Shown: piece by piece, positions 59,859-64,000 of the stretch
Layout: every line of letters starts with the position of its first letter
How positions within the stretch are numbered: position 1 is the first letter of the stretch
NCBI RefSeq assembly: GCF_000058485.1
Contig: NC_008278.1
Coordinates: 4,954,962 to 5,018,961 of the forward strand
DNA length: 64,000 nucleotides
Direction of reading: 5' to 3'
From: Frankia alni ACN14a
Lineage (GTDB): Bacteria; Actinomycetota; Actinomycetes; Frankiales; Frankiaceae
Position numbers and translations under genes: made by a program
Notes under the pieces: generated by a model
The model's database searches: none
What the model saw: only the letters and a program-made list of their open reading frames with translations
What the model was told of the DNA's origin: nothing

Positions 59859-61799
59859 TCAGGCCCGGGTTGTCAGGGCGACGAACCGGCCCCCCAGCAC
59901 GGTGTAGAGGACGACGCTCGGCGTGCGCGTGTCCCCCCACCGATCGAATCCAACGGAGCCCGTGACGCCGGCGAACGAGCCGCGGCCGATCGCGGCCACG
60001 ATGTCGTGCCGGGCGGCCGCGTCGACGGCCGGACGGCCGGGCAGCACCGTCGCCGCCGCCCGGATGATCGTCCGTGCCGCGTCGTAGGCGTAGGCGGCCA
60101 CCGCGGGAACGGCCTCGGCGCGACGCTGGGCAAGCTCGACGGCGGCGTCGTGGGCCGCCTGCCGGCGCTGCGCCGCGGCCGCGTCGCCATCGGCGGCGTC
60201 GCTTCCGGCGGCGTCGCTTCCGGCGGCGTCGCTTCCGGCGGCGTCGCTTCCGGCCGGGTGCCGTGCCGCCGGATGGCGGCTCTCCCGCGGCGGCGCTGCC
60301 GGCTGGCCGCCCGTCGCCGTAACCGCGGCCGCTTCGGAAGGGCGGGCGGCGGACGAGGTGCGGGTGGCCGGCGAGGTGCCGTTGGCGGACGTGGTGCGGG
60401 TGGCCGGCGGAGTGTGGGTGGCGGCCGACGGGGTGGCGTGCTCGCGGTTCCGCTGGCCGGAGTCGGACCCGTGGGTGCCGTCGGCGCCGCTCGGGGTGGT
60501 GCTGCCGTCGTCGTCCGCCGGACCGCCGAACCGCTCGGAGTAGTCCGCGACGAAGGCACCGGCGGCCGGAAGCCTCGTCGGCGGGACCAGCAGGCTGGTG
60601 ATCAGGTCGCCGTCCGCGGCCGACTTCGCGTCGTCGGTGTAGCGGCGTTGCAGCAGTGCGTCCGAGCCCATGACCTGGATCGACGCGCCCGCCTCGGCGA
60701 GCCGGGTCCGCAGCTTCCCGGCGAAGGCCGCGCCGGTGGCGACGTAGACCAGGTCGGGGGCCTCCTGCTCGATCGCCTCGACGGTCGATTCCAGCTCAGA
60801 CCCGTCGGGATCGTCCCCCTGGACCTGGTAGACCGACGTGACCGTCGCCCCCAACGCGGCGGAGCGCACCGCGAACCGGCCACCGAGCGTCGTGCCGTAG
60901 CGGGGTTCCCCGTCGACGACGGCGATGCGGCGGCGGCCGAGTGTTCGCACCGCGTACTCGGCGGCCACCCGCGCCTGCAGCTCGTCGGTGCCAGCGAGCC
61001 GGAAGTAGGTCGGGTAGGGGCGGGTGCGCGGGTCGGTGCCGACGCCGGTCAGGGCGGGGTCGGCGTTGGACGGGGAGACGACCGGGATGCCCCCGGCGCT
61101 CAGCGTGGGCAACGCGACCCTGGCCACGAGTGAACTCAACGGTCCGACGACGCCGATGAGGCGGTCGTTGGCGGTGAAGGCGTCGGCGGCCTGGGCTCCC
61201 CCGTCCGGGCGGGACAGGTCGTCGCGGGTGGACAGCTCCAGGCGCCAGCCCGGGATCGCCCCCGAGTCGTTGGCCTCGTCGACGGCGAGCGCGACCGCGT
61301 TGCGCACGCTCGTTCCGTCGGCGGACAGATCACCCGAGAGCGGTGCCATGACACCGAGGGTTGCCACCCTGGTCACGGCGACGTCGGCGCCGCGGTCGCC
61401 GTGCAGGACGGTGACCAGGACGAGCCCCAGCGCCGACGGCACGGCCAGGATCAGGGCGACGGTCGCGGCGAGGATCGCCCGACCGCGCCCGGTGCGCCAC
61501 CGGGCCCGGGCCCACCGGCCGATTCGGCCGGTAACCGCCAGGAGTGCGATCCGCGCATGACCCACGCGGGCCCGCCACGACCGAGCGGACCCCGGCGTCG
61601 CTCGCCGGTCGGCCTCGGTCGGCTCGGGCAGGGGGGCGGATGAGCCCGTCGCCTCCGACAGGGGGGCGGATGAGCCCGTCGGCTCGGGCAGGGGGGCGCA
61701 GGCGCCCGGCGGGGCGGGCTCCGGTGCCTGGGGGGACGGCTGCGGCGCGTCCTCGGGGCCGGGGATCGGCGCTGATCCCGGCGTGGAGGGGTCGCTCAC
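59859..61799 (-). CDS. Membrane-anchored Peripla_BP_6 protein with low-complexity insertion
   Basis: The 646-residue protein has an N-terminal cytoplasmic Pro/Ala/Glu-rich stretch of about 100 residues, a membrane anchor (ILAATVALILAVPSALGLVLVTVL), and a type I binding fold (ATLGVMAPLSGDLSADGTSV, LIGVVGPLSSLVARVALPTL, VSPSNADPALTGVGTDPRTR, RRIAVVDGEPRYGTTLGGRF, VYVATGAAFAGKLRTRLAEAG). At about residue 445 an insertion of some 120 residues, Thr/Ser/Ala-rich and with SDAAG repeats, splits the domain before AYAYDAARTIIRAA. No lipobox is present, so the protein stays anchored by its helix with the ligand-binding part outside. It starts 46 bases after pdtaR ends. It may be a receptor rather than a transporter part; the ligand is unknown. 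Confidence 0.82.
   Translation of the reverse strand: MSDPSTPGSAPIPGPEDAPQPSPQAPEPAPPGACAPLPEPTGSSAPLSEATGSSAPLPEPTEADRRATPGSARSWRARVGHARIALLAVTGRIGRWARARWRTGRGRAILAATVALILAVPSALGLVLVTVLHGDRGADVAVTRVATLGVMAPLSGDLSADGTSVRNAVALAVDEANDSGAIPGWRLELSTRDDLSRPDGGAQAADAFTANDRLIGVVGPLSSLVARVALPTLSAGGIPVVSPSNADPALTGVGTDPRTRPYPTYFRLAGTDELQARVAAEYAVRTLGRRRIAVVDGEPRYGTTLGGRFAVRSAALGATVTSVYQVQGDDPDGSELESTVEAIEQEAPDLVYVATGAAFAGKLRTRLAEAGASIQVMGSDALLQRRYTDDAKSAADGDLITSLLVPPTRLPAAGAFVADYSERFGGPADDDGSTTPSGADGTHGSDSGQRNREHATPSAATHTPPATRTTSANGTSPATRTSSAARPSEAAAVTATGGQPAAPPRESRHPAARHPAGSDAAGSDAAGSDAAGSDAADGDAAAAQRRQAAHDAAVELAQRRAEAVPAVAAYAYDAARTIIRAAATVLPGRPAVDAAARHDIVAAIGRGSFAGVTGSVGFDRWGDTRTPSVVLYTVLGGRFVALTTRA
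60196..60255 (-). repeat. 15-bp tandem repeat in anchored binding protein
   Basis: Four copies of GCGTCGCTTCCGGCG (the last with one change) encode SDAAG pentapeptides in the inserted low-complexity region. Confidence 0.9.
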
Positions 61800-61845: not shown

Positions 61846-62445
61846 TCACGAGCCTGGCAGCGCCTCGCCCGACAGCACAGCCTCGGCGACGGCGCGCATC
61901 GTCCTGCGCTGGTTCATCGACGTCCGCTGGATCCAGCGGAAGGCGTCCGGCTCGGTCATGCTGTGCTCGGTCTGGAGCACACCCTTCGCCCGCTCGATGA
62001 TCTTCCTGGCCTCGAGCCGGCCCTGCAGGTCCTCGACCTCGGCCTCCAGGCTCACGATCTCCGTGAACCGGCTCATCGCCATCTCGATCGTGGGCAGCAG
62101 GTCCTTCTTCTGGAACGGCTTGACGACGTAGGCCATGGCGCCGGCCTCACGGGCCCGCTCGACCAGCTCCCGCTGACTGAACGCGGTGAGGATGACCACG
62201 GGGGCGATGCGGTCCTTGGCGATCTTCGCGCCGGCCTCGATCCCGTCCATCCTGGGCATCTTCACGTCGAGGATGCACAGGTCGGGCCGGAGCTTGCCGG
62301 CGAGGTTGACGGCCATCTCGCCGTCGCCGGCCTCCCCGACAACCTCGTAACCCTCCTCTTGCAGCATCTCCCTGAGGTCGAGCCGGATCAGCGCTTCGTC
62401 CTCGGCGATCAGAACCCGGCGCGGGTTCGAGGAGGGTTGGCTCAT
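61846..62445 (-). CDS. pdtaR: ANTAR response regulator PdtaR
   Basis: The 199-residue protein has a response-regulator receiver (VLIAEDEALIRLDLREML, phosphoacceptor in LCILDVKMPRMDGIEAG, VVILTAFSQ, VVKPFQKKDLLPTIEMA), a coiled segment (SLEAEVEDLQGRLEARKIIERAKGVLQ) and an ANTAR RNA-binding domain (EPDAFRWIQRTSMNQRRTMRAVAEAVL). It is the RNA-binding antiterminator of the PdtaS-PdtaR pair in actinobacteria. ATG 62445 has AGGAG upstream. The partner kinase PdtaS is not in the window. Pyruvate kinase often lies next to this gene; here a tRNA and a recombinase are on that side. Confidence 0.95.
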   Translation of the reverse strand: MSQPSSNPRRVLIAEDEALIRLDLREMLQEEGYEVVGEAGDGEMAVNLAGKLRPDLCILDVKMPRMDGIEAGAKIAKDRIAPVVILTAFSQRELVERAREAGAMAYVVKPFQKKDLLPTIEMAMSRFTEIVSLEAEVEDLQGRLEARKIIERAKGVLQTEHSMTEPDAFRWIQRTSMNQRRTMRAVAEAVLSGEALPGS

Positions 62446-62594: not shown

Positions 62595-62861
62595 TCACGA
62601 TCCCTTCGTCCAGCTCCGCCCGGTCGTCTCCGCAGCGGCCCCGCCCGCTCGACCACGCTCCACCCGCCGGCCCCGGTACTCCAACGGCAGAGAGACGGTG
62701 CTCAAACCACCGACAGTGTGGGTTCGAATCCCACCCGGGGTACGTACAGCTTCCACGCGCCGTGGATGCCCAGTGGCTGCCGGGTGCGGTCCGGGGGCGG
62801 CGGTCACTTCCGCCAGATGGGCAACCTTGTCGAGGTCTGCCACCGGAATCTTGATCATCAT
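62595..62861 (-). CDS. Small ORF coupled to the recombinase, running antisense through the tRNA
   Basis: ATG 62861 overlaps the recombinase stop (ATGA) and is preceded by AGGAGGT, a near-perfect ribosome site. The first part, MMIKIPVADLDKVAHLAEVT, looks like real coding sequence. Beyond about 62745 the frame is the reverse of the tRNA (GGIRTHTVGGLSTVSLPLEY), a known false-protein pattern. I read it as the beginning of a genuine small gene of the element, cut off where the element joins the tRNA, so the true product is unclear. Confidence 0.35.
   Translation of the reverse strand: MMIKIPVADLDKVAHLAEVTAAPGPHPAATGHPRRVEAVRTPGGIRTHTVGGLSTVSLPLEYRGRRVERGRAGGAAAETTGRSWTKGS
62670..62742 (+). tRNA. 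tRNA with anticodon CAA (Leu), short variable loop
   Basis: The acceptor stem GCCCCGG pairs with CCGGGGT, and the D-stem is CTC/GAG. The anticodon stem is CGGTG/CACCG around loop CTCAAAC, giving anticodon CAA at 62703-62705. The T-arm is GTGGG-TTCGAAT-CCCAC. CCA is not encoded. CAA reads UUG (leucine), but the variable loop is only five bases (ACAGT), whereas leucine tRNAs normally have a long arm. The charging identity is therefore uncertain. Confidence 0.8.
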
Positions 62862-64000
62862 GTGCACCTCCTGCCTTTCGTGATCGAGGTGGACGGTGAG
62901 CTGAGTTCGGCGACCGACCACTGGCCGGGTCCCCGGTCGGTCAGCGCGGTGCAGGTGCCGCGGGGGTGGTGGGCTCGGACGCCGAGCCGGCGGGTCAGGG
63001 TCAGGATTTGGCCGGGGCCGAACCGGTTGGTGCGTTTGGGTGGGCGAAGGCCGTCGGTGTTGAGCTGGTCGGCGATCTGCCGGCTCGACAGGCCGCGGTC
63101 GGCGAGCTCGGTGACGCGCCGGACCAGCTGCGGGTAGTAGGACAGCTGGTCGAGGCGGGCGACCGGGCGGACGGCCTGCCCGGTGGTGTGGTGGCCGCCG
63201 GCCCAGGTGATGGTGACGTCGACCCGTTCACTGTCGCCGACGACCGCCACGGTGATCGTGTCGATGACCGTACGCAGCAGTTCCTTGCGTTCGGTCGCGG
63301 TGGTGGTCGGGGCGCGCCAGACCGCCGGGAGATCATTGGCGAGGGTGCGGATCGCGTCGCGTTCCCGGGCGGTCAGGGTGAGCGGCTGGGTCTCGGTGAA
63401 CCGCCGATACTCGACGTCCAGGTGGTCGACCTGCGCCAGCGTGGCCTCCCAGTCGGTTTCCAGCTGTCGGGTGACCAGCCGGTTCTCCGGCTCGGCCAGC
63501 TGATATTGGCGCCGGGCACGGTCGGCGGCGTACCGGGCGCGCTCCAGCCGCTGACGCCACAGCGTGTCCAGGGTGGCCCGTTCGGCTTCGGCCTGCCCGG
63601 CGGCCTGGACGGAGACCTCCAGCGCGGCCGGGGCGACCGCGTCCAACAGCTGGGTGGTCACGTACCGGTCCAGGGCGGGTCCGGCGATGTGCTGACACAC
63701 CTCGCCGGTGCCGTAGTTGGCGTTGTCGTAGCCGCAGACGTAGCTGTGGGCGGGGCTGCCGCCGGTCGGCGTGTGGTAGCGGACCGTCATCCGATGGCCG
63801 CCGCACAACCCGCACCGCAGCAGGCCGGCCAGCAGCGCCGGTCCCGCCCGCGGGGCATCCGGAGACTCGGCGATCTGCCGGTTCGCAGCCATCCGGGCAA
63901 GGTTCGCCTCGTACCGTTCGGCCGTGATGTAGGCGGGCATCCGATCCGGGAGAGCCACCAGCCACTCGTCCATCGCGCGCACCACCCGTCCGGTACTCGG
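62858..64000 (-). CDS. Large serine recombinase, C-terminal part (N-terminus outside window)
   Basis: The visible 380 residues (frame open to the window edge) belong to the C-terminal half of a large serine recombinase: YITAERYEANLARMAANRQ, then the zinc-ribbon domain LLAGLLRCGLCGGHRMTVRY...YVCGYD...VCQHIAG, a coiled region (AERATLDTLWRQRLERARYAADRARRQYQL) and a terminal helix-turn-helix-like part (VTELADRGLSSRQIADQLNTDGLRPP). The N-terminal catalytic serine domain lies to the right, outside the window. Such enzymes integrate phages and integrative elements. The gene ends 115 bases from the tRNA and overlaps the start of a small ORF. Confidence 0.9.
   Translation of the reverse strand, partial: PSTGRVVRAMDEWLVALPDRMPAYITAERYEANLARMAANRQIAESPDAPRAGPALLAGLLRCGLCGGHRMTVRYHTPTGGSPAHSYVCGYDNANYGTGEVCQHIAGPALDRYVTTQLLDAVAPAALEVSVQAAGQAEAERATLDTLWRQRLERARYAADRARRQYQLAEPENRLVTRQLETDWEATLAQVDHLDVEYRRFTETQPLTLTARERDAIRTLANDLPAVWRAPTTTATERKELLRTVIDTITVAVVGDSERVDVTITWAGGHHTTGQAVRPVARLDQLSYYPQLVRRVTELADRGLSSRQIADQLNTDGLRPPKRTNRFGPGQILTLTRRLGVRAHHPRGTCTALTDRGPGQWSVAELSSPSTSITKGRRCT

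Follow-up and report, generated by a model that had tools for sequence, protein, structure and literature searches.

Remnant of a candidate tRNA-targeting serine integrase at the left edge of a decayed island array in Frankia alni

Integration by serine recombinases at tRNA genes is described as rare by Ghinet et al. 2011, who cite phiRSM1 and a group of Mycobacterium AICEs at tRNA-Leu (PMC3218068, in the portion available); the sequence-only reading of the locus studied here had likewise called a serine recombinase at a tRNA uncommon, in agreement with that account. The same portion includes a serine-recombinase AICE from the very strain treated here, Faln2929 of F. alni ACN14a, which reportedly interrupts a putative endonuclease gene rather than a tRNA. 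The word 'tRNA' is absent from the main text of Durrant et al. as available (PMC10083194). A likeness of another kind is found in M. abscessus prophages and mycobacteriophages, where attP lies in a coding gene and integration alters the C-terminus of the protein; in the available sections on this integration-dependent immunity, the C-terminal residues are host-encoded in one case (PMC8092301).

We analysed a window of 64,000 nucleotides, positions 4954962-5018961 of the single-contig genome of F. alni ACN14a (7,497,934 bp), at whose right end a tRNA-Leu(CAA) gene, a small ORF and a serine recombinase gene, here LSR-B, follow one another. We consider it highly likely that this is the left edge of a decayed array at tRNA-Leu(CAA), that a different recombinase, here LSR-A, integrated at the tRNA, and that a later deletion fused LSR-B to LSR-A. 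Positions are those of the window unless given as genome positions; compared genomes carry G numbers, contigs C numbers and loci L numbers.

The tRNA edge, the small ORF and the fusion joint

The features at the edge are as follows.

61846-62445, minus strand: pdtaR-like response-regulator gene, the conserved upstream neighbour of the tRNA; in other Frankia the synteny reaches up to the tRNA 3' end.
62595-62861, minus strand: small ORF of 88 aa, which begins at an internal Met of the LSR-A tail and reads across the tRNA; not judged a gene.
62670-62743, plus strand: tRNA-Leu(CAA), 74 nt with a short variable loop (ARAGORN; Rfam RF00005, 49.5 bits), the target of the island array.
62744-62906, minus strand: LSR-A 3' remnant, about 54 codons with no stop before the tRNA, 94-96% identical in DNA to the LSR-A of relatives.
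62858-64000, minus strand: visible part of the serine recombinase LSR-B, 680 codons, which extends to window-equivalent position 64900.
62906/62907, no strand: LSR-B::LSR-A fusion joint; LSR-A similarity stops at 62906, and LSR-B relatives match from 62903 and 62908.

The pdtaR-like name of the first gene is presumptive, taken from the gene's sequence. The tRNA-Leu(CAA) gene is present in 13/13 Frankia genomes. In eight of them similarity stops at the last base of the tRNA (+/-2 bases), which bears out the earlier claim that integrated DNA has its edge at the tRNA 3' end, and in two of these eight (G004 and G001) the stretch that follows the tRNA in F. alni is present elsewhere, separated from the tRNA. 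The next 107-163 bp past the tRNA are kept in 5 of the 13 genomes, F. alni among them. Short variable loops are seen in this tRNA and in tRNA-Leu(TAA) (76 nt, with C at position 33; genome 6755297-6755371); by contrast, the F. alni Leu(TAG), Leu(CAG) and Leu(GAG) tRNAs have 83-86 nt. No second copy of a CAA or TAA tRNA was found among the 42 tRNAs typed, of 45 over the Rfam cut-off. Further left in the window, a 15-bp unit occurs about four times at 60195-60255, inside the ORF at 59859-61799, where by eye it gives repeated AAGSD residues.

The recombinase gene ends at 62858 on the minus strand and shares an ATGA overlap with the ORF that starts at 62861, as had been described; the ORF also enters the antisense tRNA as claimed, after 39 codons and not about 35. 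The identity over 62744-62906 is with the LSR-A of G005, G007, G008 and G001. In the first three of these the LSR-A gene adjoins the same tRNA-Leu(CAA) and has no stop before the tRNA, and LSR-A of the relatives is read in the same frame as the small ORF. On this comparison, the small ORF represents the last part of another serine integrase and not a coupled gene. The sequence-only reading had coupled it to the visible recombinase and had taken it for a small gene interrupted by integration; both proposals give way to the tail of an earlier tRNA-linked integrase, of a family whose integrated members usually read into the tRNA. What could still recommend a genuine gene with translational coupling to the recombinase is the ATGA overlap together with a good ribosome-binding motif. 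The ribosome site reported earlier, AGGAGGT, does sit ahead of 62861, but it consists of the codons Q-E-V of LSR-A; moreover, the start Met is Ile in three surveyed homologues (L238, L239 and L247), in relatives the ORF corresponds to the in-frame end of LSR-A, and it matched no Pfam family. A coupled gene is on these grounds extremely improbable. We also tried 62744-62850 as a native flank common to all strains and rejected this, because the same stretch follows tRNA-Arg in CpI1 together with the LSR-A gene.

LSR-A and LSR-B each contain Resolvase, Recombinase and zinc-ribbon domains (Pfam), and the two proteins are only distantly related. The last 13 codons of LSR-B are foreign and stand in place of 75-77 C-terminal codons of its two closest relatives (59% and 72% identity), near which no tRNA was found in the 10.5 and 15 kb around them. 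LSR-B is probably not the recombinase that recognised the tRNA. At the joint, CTC/ACTC is common to both sides, which is what an end-joined deletion would leave, and we infer such a deletion. The joint lies inside a recombinase gene with LSR-B directly beside it, so that 62906/62907 might instead be the attachment junction of an LSR-B element integrated site-specifically into the LSR-A 3' end. We regard this as very unlikely, since it would make the joint cost LSR-B the codons that both relatives have; F. alni has no match in which the missing LSR-A body is kept with this joint, and the only other strong LSR-A-like piece is an N-terminal remnant of 58-65% identity at genome 5069660-5070130.

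Predicted attachment sites of LSR-A and the island array

Comparison of attL, attR and empty sites gave, for three genomes, an LSR-A attP of 48 bp, with 15-bp inverted arms and an 18-bp centre. At tRNA-Arg(CCT) of Frankia torreyi CpI1 (G011), attL reads ...TACCTGGGGCAC followed by GTACAGCATCCACGC, and the same tRNA in F. alni is an empty site, ...TACCTGGGGCAC followed by GTTCCCGCACC. This F. alni flank recurs on another CpI1 contig, after GCGTAGATGCTGTACGAGCCTCCCCTGGGGCAC (attR). The attP reconstructed from these sites is GCGTAGATGCTGTAC-GAGCCTCCC in its left half and CTGGGGCAC-GTACAGCATCCACGC in its right half. At tRNA-Leu(CAA) in G008 and G007 the left half is the same as in CpI1 and the right has CCGGGGTAC. 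The arms are complementary at 14/15 positions in each of the three, a value that 0/20,000 shuffles each reached; the three reconstructions share ancestry and are not independent. Both ends lie on one contig in G008, 43.7 kb apart, and on separate contigs in CpI1 and G007, and the same gene borders attR in all three. In G006, which has no LSR-A at tRNA-Leu(CAA), the sequence after the tRNA is nearly that following the G007 attR.

Two further features of the window follow from this comparison.

62734-62735, no strand: predicted crossover dinucleotide CC, the start of the attB/attP common core and the centre of the reconstructed 48-bp attP.
62744-62758, no strand: LSR-A attL arm, GTACAGCTTCCACGC, one base off the arm of relatives, GTACAGCATCYACGC.

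The CC crossover is predicted because the common core begins at the symmetry centre. The tRNA is intact at attL, and attR retains CTGGGGCAC or CCGGGGTAC; as the right half of attP bears the tRNA 3' end (the acceptor-stem 3' strand), the tRNA would be restored on integration. As reconstructed, this inverted-arm attP is of the layout used by serine integrases. Genes for tRNAs are common targets of tyrosine integrases (PMC3218068 and PMC10654092, in the portions available), one ORF of that family lies in the F. alni island, and the identity blocks between attL and attR run up to 12 bp, so a tyrosine integrase could be thought to make the insertions with LSR-A as a passenger beside the tRNA. There is little probability in this, given that the attP arms are symmetric about a centre at which the core begins, that the attL structure tracks LSR-A at several tRNAs and in several genera, and that the 26 proteins scanned, out of 45 predicted for the G008 element, include no tyrosine integrase. 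LSR-A itself is the favoured enzyme.

The exact attR pattern was found at three places in 13 genomes (G007, G008 and G011). LSR-A matches of more than 500 aa are present in these three and in G006, for which no attR was obtained and in which LSR-A is C-terminally deleted and lies at a contig end. With up to two mismatches the pattern gave 21 matches in the 13 genomes against 16 for a reversed control, so that weaker attR matches mean little alone. A lenient att pattern gave 683-882 matches per strand and genome, below its reversed control (996-1207), and from it only one place (L200) was used, as a lead. LSR-A attL arms were also seen at tRNA-Arg(CCG), in G002 at 4463959 and in G001 on C162 at 21460, each without an adjacent LSR-A match, as further remnants.

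The element of Frankia sp. R82 (G008) occupies C222 21034-64707 and has 45 predicted proteins, called by codon composition rather than taken from annotation, of which 26 were run against Pfam. Actinomycete integrative and conjugative elements (AICEs) combine an FtsK/SpoIIIE Tra protein with a Rep protein and an integrase. The G008 element contains a Replic_Relax gene near attR in addition to LSR-A, and there is no FtsK among the 26 proteins scanned. A LanC-like protein and a PCMT methyltransferase flank an ORF of 1035 aa, and a lanthipeptide cargo is possible. PADLOC, applied to six of the element proteins, returned one match, mad2, from the methyltransferase.

To the right of the F. alni window, a second att site and pyk had been expected. 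The first expectation fared in two ways, as no repeat of at least 13 bases of the tRNA 3' end occurs in the first 35 kb rightward, and 12-base copies emerged when the search was extended to 115 kb. The last 12 bases of the tRNA, CACCCGGGGTAC, recur exactly at genome 5060480 and 5063886, and a third copy, one base shorter, lies near 5069584. These three attR-like ends, 43-52 kb to the right, each stand behind the same flank, with remnants nearby of the gene found next to attR in G007, G008 and G011, although at the third the match to this gene is just 31 residues (E 1e-6). A length of 12 bases alone is insufficient against chance, since internal segments of the tRNA also have two 12-base matches within these 120 kb, both without such context. 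What sets the att copies apart is that all of them stop at the final base of the tRNA and have a flank and a neighbouring gene in common. We considered whether the attR-like ends of F. alni and G004 come from an unrelated tyrosine-integrase element and rejected this, since remnants of the LSR-A right-end gene are present at these ends.

The arms of the F. alni attR-like ends (GATGTCGAAC) differ from the attL arm in the window, which argues that these ends and the attL do not belong to one element and that the array is composite. On these comparisons, the left edge of a decayed, composite island array lies in the window. With LSR-A reduced to a tail and LSR-B truncated, the array is probably immobile. 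A block at genome 5066251-5068845 is common to F. alni and G004 (96.5%); from about 5093788 onward the two genomes are again syntenic over a longer stretch. Also in the island are an ORF of the tyrosine-integrase family and an IS66-type transposase ORF (genome 5024170-5025366 and 5057258-5058235). The pyk gene was not where it had been expected: the genome has a single PF00224 match, at 4926939-4927901, about 90 kb left of the tRNA, and pyk is 72-91 kb from the tRNA in G011, G004 and G002.

LSR-A homologues and a second clade at tRNA genes

A scan of a genome collection found 13 LSR-A loci in Frankia, Amycolatopsis, Actinacidiphila, Streptomyces and Lentzea. An antisense tRNA abuts nine of the 13, all nine in Frankia, Amycolatopsis or Actinacidiphila, and the ORF enters it in 9/9; the Streptomyces and Lentzea loci had no abutting tRNA. 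Seven of the 13 were already known, and four of the six others abut a tRNA. In a class-level survey of 393 genomes, one per species, LSR-A homologues were present in 16, at 18 loci (E <=1e-60, 42-100% identity). Every one of the 18 matches was examined as a locus; 12 of them were new relative to the loci above, and 9 of these 12 abut a tRNA, the remaining six having come up already. An antisense tRNA lies at the 3' end of 14 of the 18; 13 of the ORFs run into it, and the fourteenth (L243) is broken. The tRNAs are Leu(CAA) at four loci, Arg(CCT) at five, Arg(CCG) at three, and Glu(TTC) and Arg(ACG) at one each. At two Amycolatopsis loci the tRNA-Leu(CAA) has 75 nt.

A second clade, about 29% identical to LSR-A, was found in 38 of the 393 genomes (E <=1e-80). 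Among 30 loci examined, of 47 matches listed, 24 abut tRNA-Leu(GAG), with 23 ORFs entering it. No tRNA was found at four of the 18 LSR-A loci and six of the 30 second-clade loci. One second-clade protein, L076, has Resolvase and Recombinase domains only, and five loci of this clade, all in one genus (f4/g10), have VRGGT-stop tails at tRNA-Leu(GAG). By rough, simple arithmetic, tRNA adjacency is expected by chance at about 0.0005 per locus. The read-in itself has to be weighed with the knowledge that in-frame openness is cheap in high-GC DNA. LSR-A homologues mostly enter the tRNA in one and the same frame, but within the second clade the frame varies, so that the tail peptide itself is not conserved there. 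Searches of phage and plasmid records (12 and 24 records matched, all below 60% identity) gave no close relative of LSR-A, and a search of NCBIfam gave sub-cut-off matches only.

Proposed history and comparison with known systems

On the history that we propose, an element adjacent to the tRNA would once have carried LSR-A, a large serine integrase gene at the end of the element that, without a stop of its own, would run through the attP arm into the antisense tRNA. The attB that LSR-A would recombine with the 48-bp attP would lie at the 3' end of the tRNA, with the crossover inside the CC, and the tRNA would be rebuilt from the acceptor-stem 3' strand in the right half of attP. Integration would by the same step swap the C-terminal tail of LSR-A itself. 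A deletion later in F. alni would then have joined LSR-B to the last 54 codons of LSR-A, giving the apparent coupled small ORF.

The tail of LSR-A reads ...RVDAVRAPGRNRTYGLPLRRR... in the integrated CpI1 form and ...RVDAVRAPGEARTASTQNRAK...AKAGA-stop in the predicted circular form. With attP inside the integrase gene, integration and excision would each exchange the C-terminus of the integrase. An integrase whose C-terminus changes on integration offers a testable regulatory idea, that the swap itself switches stability or direction, the tail in the integrated state being supplied by the antisense of the host tRNA; we hold this to be speculative and rather unlikely.

Serine integrases are valued tools, and those that target tRNAs are described as rare. 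In Actinomycetes, most of the loci of two related clades have now been found beside the 3' end of a tRNA, and one clade uses several different tRNAs; the predicted attP/attB pair suggests candidate integration vectors for Frankia and its relatives. The findings are also a warning for annotation, as ORFs that read into an antisense tRNA may be integrase tails and not genes. The F. alni locus is a fossil, and the interest lies in the family that it reveals.

Among described systems, the serine recombinases of the Mycobacterium AICEs are likewise actinobacterial and at tRNA-Leu, and they are probably of the same kind as the second clade at tRNA-Leu(GAG); their description in the available portion of PMC3218068 does not include the att structure, tRNA read-in or which tRNA-Leu is used. 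LSR-A homologues differ from them in using Leu(CAA), Arg(CCT), Arg(CCG), Arg(ACG) and Glu(TTC). The serine recombinase of phiRSM1, as cited in the same portion, also acts at a tRNA 3' end, that of a tRNA-Ser of Ralstonia, but phiRSM1 is a filamentous phage. No report of the integrase-tail arrangement was found in the open-access literature as available (including PMC10654092, PMC12884075 and PMC9513070). Serine integration at tRNAs is rare but known; what appears to be new is that attP lies within the integrase gene and that the host encodes the C-terminus. In the systems described in the available sections of PMC8092301 it is a repressor that is split and the enzyme is a tyrosine integrase, whereas in the case of LSR-A the gene split would be that of the serine integrase itself.
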